From the NCBI RefSeq assembly GCF_013408535.1, contig NZ_JACBZA010000001.1:3680850-3744849 (forward strand): a DNA stretch of 64,000 nucleotides. The letters are read 5' to 3'. The position numbers and the translations under genes were made by a program. The notes under the pieces were generated by a model. That model had not been told where the DNA came from and searched no databases. It saw only the letters and a program-made list of their open reading frames with translations. How positions within the stretch are numbered: the first letter of the stretch is position 1; each line of letters starts with the position of its first letter. This document shows, one piece after another, positions 1,899 through 40,487 of this stretch. The stretch is from Actinopolymorpha cephalotaxi. Its GTDB lineage: Bacteria; Actinomycetota; Actinomycetes; Propionibacteriales; Actinopolymorphaceae.

Positions 1899-3287
1899 TC
1901 AGGCGCTGAGCACCTTTCCGGGGTTGAGAATTCCGGCCGGGTCGAAGAGCCGTTTCAGGTCGCGGTGCACGCGCTCCCCGACCGGCCCGAGCTCACGGGC
2001 CAGCCAGTCGCGCTTCAGCACTCCGATGCCGTGCTCGCCGGTCACCGTGCCGCCCATCTCCAGGCCGATCCGCATGATCTCGTCGAACGCCCAGTTGGCG
2101 CGGCGCACCTGGTCGGCGTCGGACTCGTCGAAGATCACGCTGGGGTGCAGGTTGCCGTCACCGGCATGGCCCACGGTGGCGATGGTGAGGTCGGCCTCGG
2201 CGGCCACCTTCTCCACCCGGTGGATGTAGTCGGCCAGCCGGGTCAGCGGAACGCACACGTCGTCGGTCAGCCCGGTGCCCAGCGCCTCCAGGGCGTAGTG
2301 GGAGTTGCGGCGCGCGGCCAGTAGCAGCTCCCCCTCCGCCAGGTCGTCCGCCTCCACCACGTCGAAGCCGCCGGCCTCGGTGAAGATCGCGGAGATGGCG
2401 CCGATGTCGGCCACGGCCCGGTCGGGGTCGGCGTCGGACTGCGCGATCAGCATCGCGGCGGCGTTGTCGGGCATACCCATGTTGAGGTGGTCGTTACAGG
2501 CCCGCAGCGACGTCTGGTCCATGAACTCCAGCAGGCTCGGCACCAGCCCCGCGGCGACCACCCGGGCCACCGCGTCACCGGCCTGCGCGACCGTGGGGAA
2601 CAGGCCCGCCACGGTGCGGGGCTCCCGCCCGGTCGGCCGCAGCGCCAGCGTCACCTCGGTGACGACGCCGAGCGTGCCCTCCGAGCCCACGAACAGCCGG
2701 GTGAGGTCGTAGCCCGCCACGCCCTTGGCGGTCCGGCGTCCGGTGCGCAGCACCTCGCCGTCGGCGAGCACCACCTCCAGGCCGCGGACGAAGTCGGCGG
2801 TGACGCCGTACTTCACACAGCACAGCCCGCCGGCGTTGGTGGCCACGTTGCCGCCGAGGGTGGAGATCTCCCAGCTGGACGGGTCGGGCGGGTAGAACAG
2901 CCCGTGTTCGGCGACCGCCGCCGACAGGGTGGAGTTGAGAACGCCGGGCTCGACCACCGCGATCCGGTTCGGCGCGTCGATCTCGCGGATCGCGGCCATC
3001 TTCTCCAACGACAACACCACGCAGCCGTCGATCGCGTTGGCACCGCCGGACAGCCCGGTGCGCGACCCCTGGGGCACGACCGGGACGCCGAGACGGGACG
3101 CGACCCGCAGGACGTGCTGCACGTGCTCGGTGGACCGTGCGAGCACGACGGCCGCGGGTGTGCCGTACGGGCAGAACGTCGCCATGTCGTGCTGGTAGGA
3201 CGTCAGCCGGTCCGGGTCGGTGACCACCGCCTCGCCGGGAAGCTCGGCCCGCAGGGCGGTGATCAGGTCATCAGAGGTTTCCGCCAT
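1899..3287 (-). CDS. FAD-linked oxidase, GlcD/D-lactate dehydrogenase-like
   Basis: Oxidises a 2-hydroxy acid (glycolate, D-lactate or similar) with FAD. It is 462 aa, the usual size for the GlcD/DLD family. An FAD_binding_4 (PCMH) domain covers roughly residues 40-180, with PQGSRTGLSGGA and STLGGNVATNAGGL lining the FAD pocket; an FAD-oxidase C domain follows, with GHAGDGNLHP and TGEHGIG near the C-terminus. It starts 22 bases after the stop of hppD on the same strand, so the two are probably co-transcribed. That hints at a hydroxyacid linked to aromatic amino-acid breakdown, but the family is too broad to name a substrate. D-2-hydroxyglutarate or 4-hydroxyphenyllactate are alternatives. Confidence 0.88.
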   Translation of the reverse strand: MAETSDDLITALRAELPGEAVVTDPDRLTSYQHDMATFCPYGTPAAVVLARSTEHVQHVLRVASRLGVPVVPQGSRTGLSGGANAIDGCVVLSLEKMAAIREIDAPNRIAVVEPGVLNSTLSAAVAEHGLFYPPDPSSWEISTLGGNVATNAGGLCCVKYGVTADFVRGLEVVLADGEVLRTGRRTAKGVAGYDLTRLFVGSEGTLGVVTEVTLALRPTGREPRTVAGLFPTVAQAGDAVARVVAAGLVPSLLEFMDQTSLRACNDHLNMGMPDNAAAMLIAQSDADPDRAVADIGAISAIFTEAGGFDVVEADDLAEGELLLAARRNSHYALEALGTGLTDDVCVPLTRLADYIHRVEKVAAEADLTIATVGHAGDGNLHPSVIFDESDADQVRRANWAFDEIMRIGLEMGGTVTGEHGIGVLKRDWLARELGPVGERVHRDLKRLFDPAGILNPGKVLSA

Positions 3288-3309
3288 GCCCCTACGGTAG
3301 GCCGAGCGG

Positions 3310-5257
<1,948 letters not shown>

Positions 5258-11917: not shown

Positions 11918-12918
11918 CGAGACTCTCCCGAGGACGAGGTGACGGACGAGGGAGCGGAGGCGGCGGGCTGCCCGCGGCGGGCGGCGGCCACGTCCTCGGC
12001 GGTCGCCTGGCCGAGTTGGGCGACGTACTCCTCCGAACCGCCGGTCGCCTCCAGGAAGGCCTCCTCCAGCGTGGCGGTCCGGGTGGTGAGCTCGTGCAGG
12101 ACCACGCCGGCGGAGAACGCGAGCTCGCCCACCTTGGCCTGGTCCAGGCCGTTGACCACCAGGCTGCCGTCGCCCTGGGGCTCGGCCCACACCTGTTGCG
12201 CGCGCAGCGCCTCGGTCAGCCGGTCGGCCTGCGGCGTGCGGACGAGCACGGCGGTGTGGGAGGCCTTGCGTACGAAGTCCTGGACCTCGCCGGAGGCGAT
12301 CAGCCGGCCGCGGCCGATCACCACCAGCCGGTCGGCCATCAGCCCCATCTCGGCCAGCAGGTGGCTGGAGACGAACACCGTGCGCCCGGTGGAGGCGAAG
12401 GACTTCAGGAAGTTGCGCAGCCAGGTGATGCCCTGCGGGTCCAGGCCGTTGGCCGGCTCGTCCAGGATCAGCGTGTGCGGGTCGCCGAGCAGCGCGCTGG
12501 CCAGGCCGAGGCGCTGCCCCATCCCGAGGGAGAACGTCTTCGGCCTGTGGCCCGCGACGTCGGTCAGCCCGACGTGGTCGAGGACGACGTCGACCCGCTG
12601 CCGGGGAATGCCGTTGGCGGCCGCCAGCATCGTCAGGTGGTTGCGGGCGGTCCGGGTCGGGTGGAACGCCTTCGCCTCCAGCACCGCGCCGACGTGCCGC
12701 ATCGGGTGGGTGATCCGGGAGTACGGCTGCCCGTCGAAGCGCGTCTGCCCGCCGCCGTGGTCCAGGCCGAGCATCAGCCGCATGGTGGTGGACTTACCCG
12801 CTCCGTTGGGGCCGAGGAAGCCGGTCACCACGCCGGGCTCGACGCTGAACGACAGGTCGTCCACCGCGCGTTTGCCGCCGTAGATCTTGGTGAGGTTCCT
12901 CGCCTCGATCCGTCCCAC
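11914..12918 (-). CDS. ABC transporter ATP-binding protein (exporter type)
   Basis: 334 aa from the GTG at 12918, which has GGGAGG 6 bases upstream; the frame is open further but without similarity. Walker A GPNGAGKST at 36-44, signature-like SLGMGQ at 130-135 and Walker B LILDEP around 150-155, followed by a His-switch in SSHLL. After about residue 220 comes a non-catalytic domain and a Ser/Ala-rich tail. The divergent signature (no LSGGQ) is common in this DrrA/BcrA-like group. It pairs with the permease at 11129-11917 through an ATGA overlap. Drug or lipid export is the family role; the substrate is unknown. Confidence 0.92.
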   Translation of the reverse strand: MGRIEARNLTKIYGGKRAVDDLSFSVEPGVVTGFLGPNGAGKSTTMRLMLGLDHGGGQTRFDGQPYSRITHPMRHVGAVLEAKAFHPTRTARNHLTMLAAANGIPRQRVDVVLDHVGLTDVAGHRPKTFSLGMGQRLGLASALLGDPHTLILDEPANGLDPQGITWLRNFLKSFASTGRTVFVSSHLLAEMGLMADRLVVIGRGRLIASGEVQDFVRKASHTAVLVRTPQADRLTEALRAQQVWAEPQGDGSLVVNGLDQAKVGELAFSAGVVLHELTTRTATLEEAFLEATGGSEEYVAQLGQATAEDVAAARRGQPAASAPSSVTSSSGESR

Positions 12919-13346
12919 GGATGCCTCCCGACACCTTGGTTGCCAATCCTGGCCTGCTGGCCGTCCCCCACCGTAGGCGGTGGCCAACCCGGCGACGTGG
13001 CCCGGCGGGTGGAGTTTGCCCGGCCCGGTGTCCGACCTGAGGATGAGGCGGCCTCCTCAGGTTCGGCCCAAGGGGATGGCGGTGGGTGGCGCCCGGCGCG
13101 TACGGTTGCCGGCATGGGCGTACCCGGGCGGCGATTTCGCCGCCCCGGCCGGCACCGCGGTGCCGTCGGGGTGGAGTGCCGGGTATGCCCGGGTGCCGCG
13201 TTCTGATCATCTGAGGACCTGAACGCGAACCACCTGGGCGCCGTCGGCGGCGTTCTCCTCGGTGGATCCGCAGCGAGCCGGTCGGGGTGTGCGAGTCCCT
13301 TCACCCCGTCCCACCCATCGCGCACGATCCTTCGAGGAGTACTCCG
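12919..13346. other. Divergent intergenic region with an inverted repeat
   Basis: About 428 bases between the ABC ATPase (minus) and the PheS-like gene (plus). No credible gene. It must hold both promoters; the one clear structure is the inverted repeat at 13032-13066. Confidence 0.5.
13032..13066. promoter_or_regulatory. Inverted repeat (candidate operator) upstream of the ABC exporter
   Basis: ACCTGAGGA (13035-13043) and TCCTCAGGT (13054-13062) are perfect 9-base arms around a 10-base spacer; with one bulged T the pairing extends to CCG/CGG on the outside. It is about 115 bases upstream of the ABC ATPase start and 280 from the PheS-like start. It could be a repressor site or a hairpin in a leader. 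Confidence 0.45.
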
Positions 13347-14507
13347 ATGTCTTCGATGTCTGCTGTCCTCACGCCCGCGCAGCTGCGGGCCTGTCTCTCG
13401 ATCCGCGACCTGTCCGACCCGGCCCAGGGCCCGCACGCCCTGCAGCTCGTGGTCGGCGACCTGGCCGCCGCCCTGGGTTCGGCCTGGGACGCCGAGGTCC
13501 GCGTCGTCCGGTCCTCTCCCGTCGTCTCCCTCGCCGACAACTACGACCACCTGGGGTACGCCGCCGACGCCGTGACGCGCGAGGCGCACTACACCCGCTA
13601 CGTCGACGCCGAGCACGTGCTGCGCAGCCACAGCAGCGCGTCGATCCCCGGAGCGCTGCGCCGGCTCGCCGCCGGGGTCACTGCCGAGGCCGGGACCTCA
13701 CCCACCGACGTGCTGCTGGTCTGCCCCGGCATGTGTTACCGGCGGGACAGCATCGACTGGCAGCACACGGGTACGCCGCACCAGCTCGACCTGTGGCGGG
13801 TACGCCGGCACCGGCCCTGCACCGAGGAGGACCTCACCGAGCAGATCGGGCTGGTGGTGGAGACGGCGCTGCCGGGCAGCCGCTGGCGTACCGAACCGAA
13901 GGTGCACCCCTACACCGAGCACGGCCGCCAGATCGACGTGTGGTGGCAGGGCCGCTGGGTGGAGATCGGCGAGTGCGGCCTGGCCGCGCCCGGAGTGCTG
14001 GCCGGCGCCGGGTTGCCCGTACCCACCTGGACCGGCCTGGCGATGGGGCTCGGCCTGGACCGGCTGCTGATGCTCGGCAAGGGCATCCCCGACATCCGGC
14101 TGCTGCGCTCGGCCGATCCCCGGGTGGCCGCGCAGATGCTGGATCGTACGGAGTACCGGCCGGTCTCCCACCAGCCTCCGGTACGCCGCGACCTGTCCGT
14201 CGTGGTGGACGCCGGCGTGGACACCTCGGCCGAACTGCTCGGCGACCGGGTGCGCGCGGCTCTGGGAACAGACGCCGACGTCGTGGAGACCGTCGAGGTG
14301 CTGTCGGAGACGTCGTACGACGACCTGCCCGCGGCAGCGCGGACCCGGCTGGGGATCGCCCCGGGCCAGCGGAACGTGCTGGTCCGGCTGGTGGTGCGGG
14401 CACTGGACTGCACGCTCACCGACGCCGACGCCAACCGGCTGCGGGACCAGGTCTACGCCGAACTGCACCAGGGCGCCGTCTCCCAGTGGGCGGAGGCAGG
14501 GCGGTAA
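13347..14507 (+). CDS. Stand-alone PheS-like ligase with C-terminal FDX-ACB domain
   Basis: 386 aa from the ATG at 13347 (GAGGAG upstream). Residues about 30-265 are a class II aminoacyl-tRNA synthetase core of the PheRS alpha type: motif 1 region with YVDAEHVLRSHSS, motif 2 region MCYRRDSIDWQH..TPHQLDLW (130-150), the Gly-rich EIGECGLAAPGVL, and motif 3 GLAMGLGLDRLLML (230-243) leading to GIPDIRL. Residues about 275-386 resemble the ferredoxin-fold anticodon-binding (FDX-ACB) domain normally found at the end of PheT. The layout is that of monomeric mitochondrial PheRS. Bacteria normally use PheS2PheT2, so this is probably a second, specialised ligase; it recalls the group curated as 'PheS-related mystery ligase' (from memory). 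Substrate unknown. Confidence 0.8.
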   Translation: MSSMSAVLTPAQLRACLSIRDLSDPAQGPHALQLVVGDLAAALGSAWDAEVRVVRSSPVVSLADNYDHLGYAADAVTREAHYTRYVDAEHVLRSHSSASIPGALRRLAAGVTAEAGTSPTDVLLVCPGMCYRRDSIDWQHTGTPHQLDLWRVRRHRPCTEEDLTEQIGLVVETALPGSRWRTEPKVHPYTEHGRQIDVWWQGRWVEIGECGLAAPGVLAGAGLPVPTWTGLAMGLGLDRLLMLGKGIPDIRLLRSADPRVAAQMLDRTEYRPVSHQPPVRRDLSVVVDAGVDTSAELLGDRVRAALGTDADVVETVEVLSETSYDDLPAAARTRLGIAPGQRNVLVRLVVRALDCTLTDADANRLRDQVYAELHQGAVSQWAEAGR

Positions 14508-14549
14508 CGAGCGGGGCGTCTGTCAGTCGCCGTCTGTCAGCCGTCGATG

Positions 14550-15842
14550 TCAGCCGTCGATGTTGGCCGGGCCGTGGGCGCGGGCGGCGGTTTCGCCGCC
14601 GGTCCGCGTCCCGGCCCGCTCACCGCCCTGCTTGCCGTCCTCCTCGCCGTCGGACTTGCCACCGGCGGCGCCGCGCAGCAGCCCGGCGGCGACGAAGATG
14701 AGCGCCACGAAGGCGAGCGGGATGACCAGCGCCCACTCCAGCCCGACCCGGTGGGCGACGGCGCCGATCGCGACCGGGCCGAGCACCGCGCCCAGGTAGC
14801 CCGCCGACACCACCGGGCCGAGGACCGACACGCGGTTCTTCGTTCCCGTGTTGCCGGCGGCACTGAACACCACCGGCACCGCCGGCCCGATCCCGAACCC
14901 GGCGACGGCGAAGCCCACCAGCGCCACCGCCGGCCCGGGCGCGAGCAGGAAGATGACGTACCCCAGCGCACCCAGCGCGGCGCCGGCGCGCGCCACCACC
15001 ACCGGGCCGTACTTCGCGCCCACCCGGTCCGCGATCAGCCGGGACGCCGTCATCGCACCGGAGAACACCGACAGCCCGAGCGCCGCGAGCCCGACGGAGG
15101 CACCGAGGCTCTCGTTCAGGTAGACCGCGCTCCAGTCGGCGATCGCCCCCTCGCCGAGGAACGACCCGAACCCCATCGCCGCCATCATCACCACCACGAC
15201 GACGCGGACCGGGGGCCGCCGCCCGCCGGGCACCTCCACGTGGTGGCCGGTGACCGCCGCCTCCTGTTCGGGGCGCAGCAGACGGGCGAGGAACGGCGCG
15301 CTGGCCACCGCGCACACCACCCCGGCCACGATGAAGTGCACCCGGACGTCCACGCCCTCCCGCGCCACCAGCGCGGCGATCGCCGAACCCGCCATCGAGC
15401 CGAGACTCCACAGGCCGTGGAAGCCGGACATGATCGGCCGGCCGTACAACCGCTCGACCGCCACGGCGTGCGCGTTCATCGCGACGTCCAGCATCCCGCC
15501 GATCAGGCCCAGCACGGCCAGCGCGGCGGTCAGCGTCACCAGGTCGGTGGCGAACGCGGGGCCGACCAGCGCGACGGCCTGCACCGGCACGAGGATGCGC
15601 ATCGCCAGGCCGGTGCGGCCCGCCCGCTCCATCCGGCCGGTCAGTCTCGTGCCCACCAGCAGGCCGACCGCGAGGCCGCCGAGGGCGATGCCGAGGGCGC
15701 CGTTGTCGAGGTGGAGAGCCTGCTTGATGGACGGGATCCGGGGGGCCCAGGTGGCGAAGACGGCCGCGTGGACGAGGAACGTCACGGCCACCGCGAGGCG
15801 GGCCCGGCGTACCTCCGGCGGCGGTGCGGGTGCGCGCATCAC
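14550..15842 (-). CDS. MFS transporter
   Basis: 430 aa, about twelve membrane segments in two halves separated by a loop near residue 200 (LLRPEQEAAVTGHH). The N-terminal half has the MFS-type GTRLTGRMERAGRTG loop between segments 2 and 3. It resembles the YbjJ/fucose-permease-like branch (WAPRIPSIKQALHLDNGALGIAL; GFHGLWSLGSMAG), whose substrates are mostly undefined. The Glu/Lys/Gly-rich tail is cytoplasmic. GTG at 15842 and ATG at 15839 are both possible starts. Its stop lies 42 bases from the stop of the convergent PheS-like gene, in a short spacer with two copies of TGTCAGCCGTCGA. Confidence 0.88.
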   Translation of the reverse strand: MMRAPAPPPEVRRARLAVAVTFLVHAAVFATWAPRIPSIKQALHLDNGALGIALGGLAVGLLVGTRLTGRMERAGRTGLAMRILVPVQAVALVGPAFATDLVTLTAALAVLGLIGGMLDVAMNAHAVAVERLYGRPIMSGFHGLWSLGSMAGSAIAALVAREGVDVRVHFIVAGVVCAVASAPFLARLLRPEQEAAVTGHHVEVPGGRRPPVRVVVVVMMAAMGFGSFLGEGAIADWSAVYLNESLGASVGLAALGLSVFSGAMTASRLIADRVGAKYGPVVVARAGAALGALGYVIFLLAPGPAVALVGFAVAGFGIGPAVPVVFSAAGNTGTKNRVSVLGPVVSAGYLGAVLGPVAIGAVAHRVGLEWALVIPLAFVALIFVAAGLLRGAAGGKSDGEEDGKQGGERAGTRTGGETAARAHGPANIDG

Positions 15843-40116: not shown

Positions 40117-40487
40117 TGGTGGAGGTGGCGGGAATCGAACCCGCGTCCTTCGTCGATGTTTCAGGGCTTCTCCGGGCGCATCCTGTTAGACGTTCTACTC
40201 GGCCCCGGCGCTCTCACAGGCAAGTCGCCGACGGGCCCAGCCACCGTTCATTTTCCCGTACGGCCCAGTGGCCGGTCCGTACAGGTGAGCCCTCTTGATG
40301 AGATCAGATCCCGGGCCGAAGGCACTCCCGGGTTGACCCTTCGTCAGCTCGCCTCAGGCGGCGAGAGCGAAGTTAGTGCGCTTGGAATCGGCACTTATTG
40401 GTTTCCAGGGATCGTTAACGAGACAACCCTGGGTCCTCGGCCCGCTTCCCCTGAAGCGATCGCACGAAGTCGAAACCGTTCACCCCC
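40117..40487 (-). ncRNA. ssrA: Transfer-messenger RNA (tmRNA)
   Basis: 371 bases, minus strand. The 5' end GGGGGUG and the 3' end ...CACCUCC-ACCA (40117-40119 = CCA) form the tRNA-like acceptor stem, and GGUUCGAUUCCC is the T-arm. The start GGGGGUGAACGGUUUCGAC is typical. The tag frame runs from GCC at 40392 to TGA at 40354 and encodes ADSKRTNFALAA, with the ALAA degradation signal. It rescues stalled ribosomes with SmpB, which is encoded at 54704-55186 in this same window. Confidence 0.97.

Follow-up and report, generated by a model that had tools for sequence, protein, structure and literature searches.

Mitochondrial PheRS (FARS2) works without a beta subunit, and archaeal and cytosolic PheRS carry NPY at the position of the FPF motif. 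The indolmycin-resistant TrpRS1 of Streptomyces stands behind an attenuator-type leader with its own codons. No function is given by the name of the NCBIfam family NF051887, "PheS-related mystery ligase SrmL". According to the available excerpt of PMC1262725, the trpS and leuS genes of Streptomyces are attenuator-controlled, and phenylalanine operons of Actinobacteria were studied with no conserved upstream RNA structure reported. Attenuation by upstream open reading frames (uORFs) has been described in mycobacteria (PMC13236596, in excerpt). Among the matches listed in our literature searches, no paper dealt with SrmL or with a Phe leader upstream of a gene of this kind, and none described the srmL leader, its plasmid and phage members or a link to Phe.

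Here we describe an srmL gene in a 64,000-nucleotide stretch of Actinopolymorpha cephalotaxi DNA, hereafter the window. We propose, with a probability of about 0.72, that SrmL is an auxiliary stand-alone, single-chain PheRS under Phe-tRNA-sensing attenuation.

The window gene and its protein

The srmL reading frame is open from a GTG at 13287, and the ATG at 13347 is preceded by GAGGAG. The gene and its parts are as follows.

13347..14507, + strand: srmL, encoding a single-chain PheRS-like protein of 386 aa
13506..14135, + strand: class II aminoacyl-tRNA synthetase core (PF01409), from the Pfam match and motif residues
14166..14471, + strand: FDX-ACB (anticodon-binding-like) domain, from PF03147 at 27.4 bits (below cut-off) and the full-chain structural match
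13334..13339, + strand: GAGGAG, a Shine-Dalgarno-like site of srmL, read from the sequence

The window protein matches the whole NF051887 model (514.3 bits against a cut-off of 300, positions 1-349 of 349). It scores 102.7 bits with PF01409, and 27.4 bits with PF03147, which is below the curated 31.1. The pheS family model (84.5 bits) stays under its cut-off as well, and so does TIGR00469 (pheS_mito; 125.2 bits against 258.35), for which reason the protein was not filed under TIGR00469 despite the same architecture.

We obtained an AlphaFold model with a mean pLDDT of 92.0 and a pTM of 0.88, using alignment A3 (48 rows picked from the available loci; L121 was omitted, and most other omissions were near relatives of kept rows). 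The best structural match (Foldseek, VIA-align) is human mitochondrial PheRS (5mgv), with Z 36.1 and rmsd 2.3 over 343 of 386 residues at 25% identity, and the alignment spans model residues 3-379, that is, the whole chain. Core-only PheRS chains come next in the ranking with Z about 27, followed by SepRS and PylRS with Z about 20. The original prediction, a PheS core and an FDX-ACB tail in one chain as in mitochondrial PheRS, is thus borne out by the domain matches and by the whole-chain Z of 36.

It had also noted that no PheT is nearby and had supposed a second enzyme besides the normal pheS-pheT pair, and both points hold. A full-score pheS at C1:2271432 adjoins the one pheT match of the genome at C1:2272217, about 1.4 Mb from the window srmL; SrmL is stand-alone and is a second enzyme in a genome with a normal pheST. 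All six genus genomes searched contain an srmL homologue (identity 71-100%) together with a second, weaker PheS-like match. Given the reading frame, the domains, the separate pheST and the presence in 6/6 genus genomes, srmL is a conserved gene and no chance ORF. A tmRNA gene lies elsewhere in the window (40117-40487, - strand; tag ADSKRTNFALAA).

In the 48 rows of A3, the class II motif 2 and 3 residues R132, R133, D134, H140 and R239 are invariant and Q146 nearly so. The sequence HSSASI had been taken as a hint of a changed substrate. The motif is present, as LRSHSSASI in the window protein versus LRAHTSAHQ at the equivalent place in human mitochondrial PheRS, but the argument is weak because a true PheRS itself reads HTSAHQ there. 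The SrmL family consensus is HTSA, with A98 invariant in A3 and the H replaced by Q in L071, L098 and L182. The predicted fold is that of mitochondrial PheRS, with pocket residues that are not identical. The FPF of mitochondrial PheRS, which lines the Phe side-chain pocket, aligns with H187-P188-Y189 of SrmL, in which H187 and Y189 are invariant (A3); further differences from PheRS are P144 for the motif 2 Phe and D148 for Glu.

The invariant H187 and Y189 in place of the aromatic pair of FPF, together with P144 and D148, would suit an enzyme that activates another amino acid (e.g. Tyr, or Phe with a hydroxyl group or another modification) or charges a target other than tRNA-Phe, with the leader coupling it to aromatic supply. 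A changed substrate is therefore compatible with the sequence, but we consider it unlikely. The FDX-ACB tail and the full mitochondrial PheRS fold speak against it, and Phe with tRNA-Phe is favoured by evidence given below: the Phe-codon leader, the differently designed, Phe-rich leaders of two AT-rich relatives, and the tRNA-Phe genes near srmL on two phage contigs.

Distribution in bacteria, plasmids and phages

At E 1e-60 and with its own genome counted, srmL is patchy both in the order (49/196 genomes) and in the class (26/394 genomes). Within the phylum, two of 396 genomes have a match above the curated cut-off, and in one more copy a frame break interrupts the gene. The matches of 380/396 phylum genomes at E 0.001 are read as cross-matches to ordinary PheS, since 14/14 control genomes also respond below the cut-off. 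Scanning 84,980 species yielded 206 confirmed srmL stretches, 80 of which were kept, Myxococcota among them. We also found srmL in three plasmid records (Azotobacter, Glutamicibacter and, with a partial copy, Corynebacterium diphtheriae), in an uncultured phage record of 635 kb and in five IMG/VR contigs (181-578 kb). The SrmL cut-off was passed by all five proteins tested (L071, L098, L182, L183 and L185).

In a tree rooted with a PheS outgroup on a very long branch, five phage proteins and contig L198 form one group (100/99), which is joined by the Azotobacter plasmid copy (96/86). This larger group stands beside Myxococcota and L071 with weaker support (93/82). The grouping points to movement of srmL between phyla. 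Streptomyces sp. SID13031 has two srmL copies (L062 and L067), both grouping with Kribbella, and the label of this genome may be wrong.

In each of the six viral records, no PheRS-core match other than SrmL is strong; two others score 18-21 bits. A pheT match over the cut-off was found in none of these six records, which are possibly fragments, and three weak matches are the tail of SrmL itself. Huge phages have been reported with up to 15 tRNA synthetases (PMC7162821, in excerpt). In contig L191, srmL (3001-4065) lies between two tRNA-Phe genes (2714-2788 and 4240-4314), and in L193 a tRNA-Phe is followed by a tRNA-Val and then srmL (3001-4065); the stretches around srmL in L185 and L192 contain no tRNA. 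As phage tRNA arrays are dense, a single tRNA-Phe neighbour means little, and the two nearest-neighbour tRNA-Phe genes of L191 mean more. In A. cephalotaxi itself, a tRNA-Phe pattern with three mismatches allowed hit four places, one of them a tRNA-Phe, with no second copy seen at a search depth that a divergent copy would escape.

Two contigs had further features. In L197, a 508-kb phage contig, a gene end at about 4600-5000 looks histidyl-tRNA synthetase-like by eye and srmL follows directly. L198, a 181-kb IMG/VR contig, has a tmRNA call at 853-1228 that was asterisked by ARAGORN, and may be bacterial rather than viral.

On the Glutamicibacter plasmid, srmL is full-length and a Cmx efflux gene precedes it by about 0.5 kb. 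Two Corynebacterium resistance plasmids, from C. diphtheriae (FRC0402_p2; L184, 6001-6654) and from Corynebacterium sp. 22KM0430 (L190, 6506-6931), carry only a C-terminal remnant of the gene, flanked by erm(X) and tet(65). No drug-resistance gene is annotated within the 17 kb shown around the Azotobacter plasmid copy. These plasmid neighbours fit, but do not prove, a resistance role for srmL.

Clustering of the flanking genes of 80 loci by blastp revealed no widely common neighbour among the 25 largest clusters, with a gene caller that found srmL itself in 72/80 loci. The largest clusters 3' of srmL cover 18 loci, mainly Kribbella, and smaller ones mix genera at varied positions. When 60 of the 80 loci were scanned for tRNA genes near chromosomal srmL, Kribbella and similar genomes showed a tRNA-Trp 5' of the gene at a distance of about 4-5 kb, which we read as genus synteny, and otherwise there were single cases.

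The leader upstream of srmL

Upstream of srmL, the window contains the following leader features.

13101..13106, + strand: TACGGT, a box resembling a -10 element, 7 nt away from the start codon of the uORF, which suggests a leaderless transcript
13114..13206, + strand: upstream ORF (leader peptide) MGVPGRRFRRPGRHRGAVGVECRVCPGAAF, then stop; corresponding leaders are present in 79/80 named loci
13132..13137, + strand: codon pair CGA-TTT (Arg-Phe), with TTT at 13135-13137 as the proposed sensor codon
13141..13153, + strand: arm A, CGCCCCGGCCGGC, with a C-run beginning 5 nt downstream of the Phe codon; covaries with arm C
13167..13171, + strand: arm B, CGGGG, a local alternative partner of arm A within the uORF, from folding
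13277..13289, + strand: arm C, GCCGGTCGGGGTG, the distal partner of arm A, from covariation
13302..13308, + strand: arm D, CACCCCG, which can pair instead with the 3' half of arm C, from folding only (pCD 0.72 for the window leader)

The uORF was first spotted by reading the DNA 5' of about 30 srmL loci. It is a conserved short frame, in most cases 20-33 codons long, whose single Phe codon falls at codon 4-13 (most often 7, 8 or 10). Over the 80 named loci, six of which had their leaders placed by eye (L071, L083, L088, L096, L098 and L121), this codon is TTT in 78 and TTC in one (L121), and one locus, the second copy in its genome (L067), has no leader. With the window counted (79 named loci plus the window), TTT occurs in 79/80 leaders and TTC in 1/80. 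In L096 the TTT-bearing frame has no stop before srmL. The leader of L017 has TTC, and those of the plasmid copies L182 and L183 have TTT. A further 49 loci from whole genomes, many from the same or near species, gave 48 TTT and one TTC (L175, with a low profile score). TTC is the norm in the predicted flanking genes and srmL, where 219 of 6261 Phe codons (3.5%) are TTT. The leaders with the synonymous TTC speak for selection on the Phe codon, and not on the DNA letters alone. CGA, which accounts for 7.3% of Arg codons, immediately precedes the Phe codon in 60/80 leaders, and this slow codon may strengthen the pause.

A TANNNT box was detected 6-9 nt (mostly 6-7 nt) before the uORF start in 72/82 leaders, a count biased by the finder itself, which rewarded such a box. 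With the box so close to its start, the uORF is probably leaderless. Since the first finder also required TTT, we ran a peptide-profile search with a blank Phe column. This profile, trained on those same srmL loci, reached at least 12 bits in 73/80 srmL upstreams (blank column TTT in 72, TGC in one), compared with 13/505 other gene upstreams and 5/54 strands of 27 PheS-like loci. The same profile found no such leader at the pheS of A. cephalotaxi (best score -3.1). The uORF is conserved together with its Phe codon and is presumably translated.

A partly conserved R-F-x-x-P in the leaders, the two Corynebacterium plasmid remnants next to erm(X) and tet(65), and the full-length srmL after Cmx in Glutamicibacter might also indicate a leader that senses an antibiotic-stalled ribosome, or acts as an arrest peptide, instead of sensing Phe-tRNA-Phe, with SrmL as a drug-response gene. 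The rare synonymous TTT, kept in 79/80 leaders where TTC is the norm, would be needless for an arrest peptide, and the residue before the leader Phe varies (R, W, L, S or T), which makes this reading very unlikely.

Arms A and C covary. When each of 32 genus labels is represented by a single locus, 95.5% of cells over nine A:C pairs are paired, compared with a mean of 82.5% and a maximum of 88.2% in 2000 permutations, which leave relatedness among genera in place (L082, L112, L089 and L075 were dropped because their helix register was unsure). Examples are CCUCCCGG:CCGGGAGG, CCCCUUGA:UCAAGGGG and CCCCCUGACCC:GGGUCAGGGGG. The first C-run begins 5 nt after the Phe codon in 72/80 leaders and 0 nt after it in 8/80, and arm C lies 33-57 nt before srmL in nearly all of the arm pairs listed (exceptions: L071, 63; L106, 119; L110, 124; L112, 6). 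A:C, identified by covariation, and A:B and C:D, identified by folding only, are mutually exclusive pairings. Intrinsic terminators were detected by scan in L182, L185 and L198, and by reading in L071, where an alternative partner of arm C is followed by six T. The Azotobacter plasmid leader has a strong hairpin followed by ATTTTCTTTT ahead of srmL. No intrinsic terminator was seen on reading the window and the GC-rich leaders examined by eye, and Rfam gave one match in window positions 12000-15500 (E 0.45, far below the gathering score).

Equilibrium folding gave an A:C probability of 0.00 for the window leader alone and a mean of 0.24 for 79 free leaders (L096 omitted). When a ribosome was masked to +13 from TTT, the means over 79 leaders changed from 0.50 to 0.64 for C:D and from 0.24 to 0.07 for A:C; with A:C falling and C:D rising, this is the wrong direction for a stall that switches srmL on. 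For Azotobacter, the terminator probability with the stall mask is 0.00 at +8, 0.01 at +10 and 0.97 at +13, with 0.97-0.98 for a ribosome on arm A and 0.01 for one at the stop codon. The corresponding values for L071 are 0.00, 0.19 and 0.54, then 0.56-0.59 on arm A and 0.00 at the stop. Because the outcome flips with the assumed footprint, folding does not fix the direction of the switch in the GC-rich, Azotobacter and L071 leaders.

The leaders of two AT-rich relatives look classical, with FNFFF or FSFFMFDFF and an intrinsic terminator. The phage leader of L185, MNTNTTFNFFFSHKMV followed by a stop, has four Phe codons and then an 11-pair terminator. Before its last arm is made, the antiterminator has a probability of 0.97-0.98 with a ribosome at each Phe codon, 0.00 at the stop and 0.01 without ribosome. 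The leader of L198, MNMLNKNNFSFFMFDFFGTQARGAILLKE followed by a stop, has six Phe codons plus a terminator, and its antiterminator reaches 0.78-0.83 with the ribosome at any of these six, against 0.59 at the stop, 0.25 when no ribosome is present and 0.00 at codon 24. The full-length L185 and L198 leaders always form the terminator in equilibrium folding, so this switch, seen only with truncated leaders, is a co-transcriptional prediction. Their Phe density was matched by 3 and 4 of 1000 shuffles, with window sizes set after the leaders had been seen. No Phe-run leader was seen in the 420 nt 5' of srmL in L191, L192, L193 and L197. In these folding models, the direction in which a stall yields the antiterminator is clearer in the AT-rich relatives than in the GC-rich hosts.

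In a further alternative, SrmL would consume Phe or Phe-tRNA for another purpose and be turned off at Phe-tRNA shortage. This agrees with the footprint to +13, under which a ribosome stalled at TTT covers arm A and promotes C:D or the terminator, but it is very unlikely beside the classical geometry of L185, in which a stall gives the antiterminator and a ribosome at the stop gives none.

Proposed function and relation to known systems

As the auxiliary PheRS that we propose, SrmL would activate Phe (or a very close analogue) with ATP and load tRNA-Phe; both the enzymatic activity and Phe as substrate are what we infer from the fold, the leaders and the tRNA-Phe neighbours. With no beta subunit, it would also lack the PheT editing domain. 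In GC-rich hosts, the leaderless uORF would offer the slow CGA-TTT pair to the ribosome. A ribosome awaiting Phe-tRNA-Phe would sit just 5' of arm A and leave A to pair with C, in competition with C:D or a terminator hairpin, and a ribosome reading through would disrupt arm A and keep expression low. The two AT-rich relatives would use classical Phe-run leaders and intrinsic terminators. In bacteria, plasmids and giant phages, srmL would be switched on when the normal PheST undersupplies Phe-tRNA-Phe. The need for such a spare enzyme is presumed here, as is the direction of the switch in GC-rich hosts.

It is possible, though tentative, that SrmL is an inhibitor-tolerant PheRS comparable to the indolmycin-resistant TrpRS. 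Poisoning of PheST, by a natural analogue of Phe or by a compound that targets PheRS, would then be what induces it, and it would spread on resistance plasmids and in huge phages with their own tRNA-Phe. If this is true, the spread of SrmL predicts natural PheRS inhibitors. A link to the puromycin synthetase Pur6 was considered and dropped, Pur6 being described without a known conserved domain in the available excerpt of PMC11641026.

The auxiliary PheRS reading proposes a testable function for a family that NCBI labels a mystery ligase, and bacteria, plasmids and huge phages gain a candidate PheRS made of one chain. It would also place a phenylalanine attenuator in Actinobacteria, where the comparative survey in PMC1262725, as excerpted, reported none, and the CGA-TTT pair would be an unusually economical sensor.

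By family, the window protein is a whole-length SrmL (NF051887). With mitochondrial PheRS (FARS2; TIGR00469) it has in common the whole-chain fold, the core plus FDX-ACB and, by the family consensus, HTSA; unlike FARS2, it has HPY instead of FPF and sits in a genome with normal pheST. Like trpS and leuS of Streptomyces as described in the excerpt of PMC1262725, srmL is a synthetase gene behind a leader peptide with codons for what would be its own amino acid, but the srmL leader differs in using Phe, a single slow codon instead of a run, and a leaderless uORF. The mycobacterial polycysteine leaderless attenuators, cited in the available part of PMC13236596, are likewise leaderless uORFs in Actinobacteria that act as amino acid sensors; they use Cys runs ahead of cys operons, whereas srmL would use a single Phe codon ahead of a synthetase gene.
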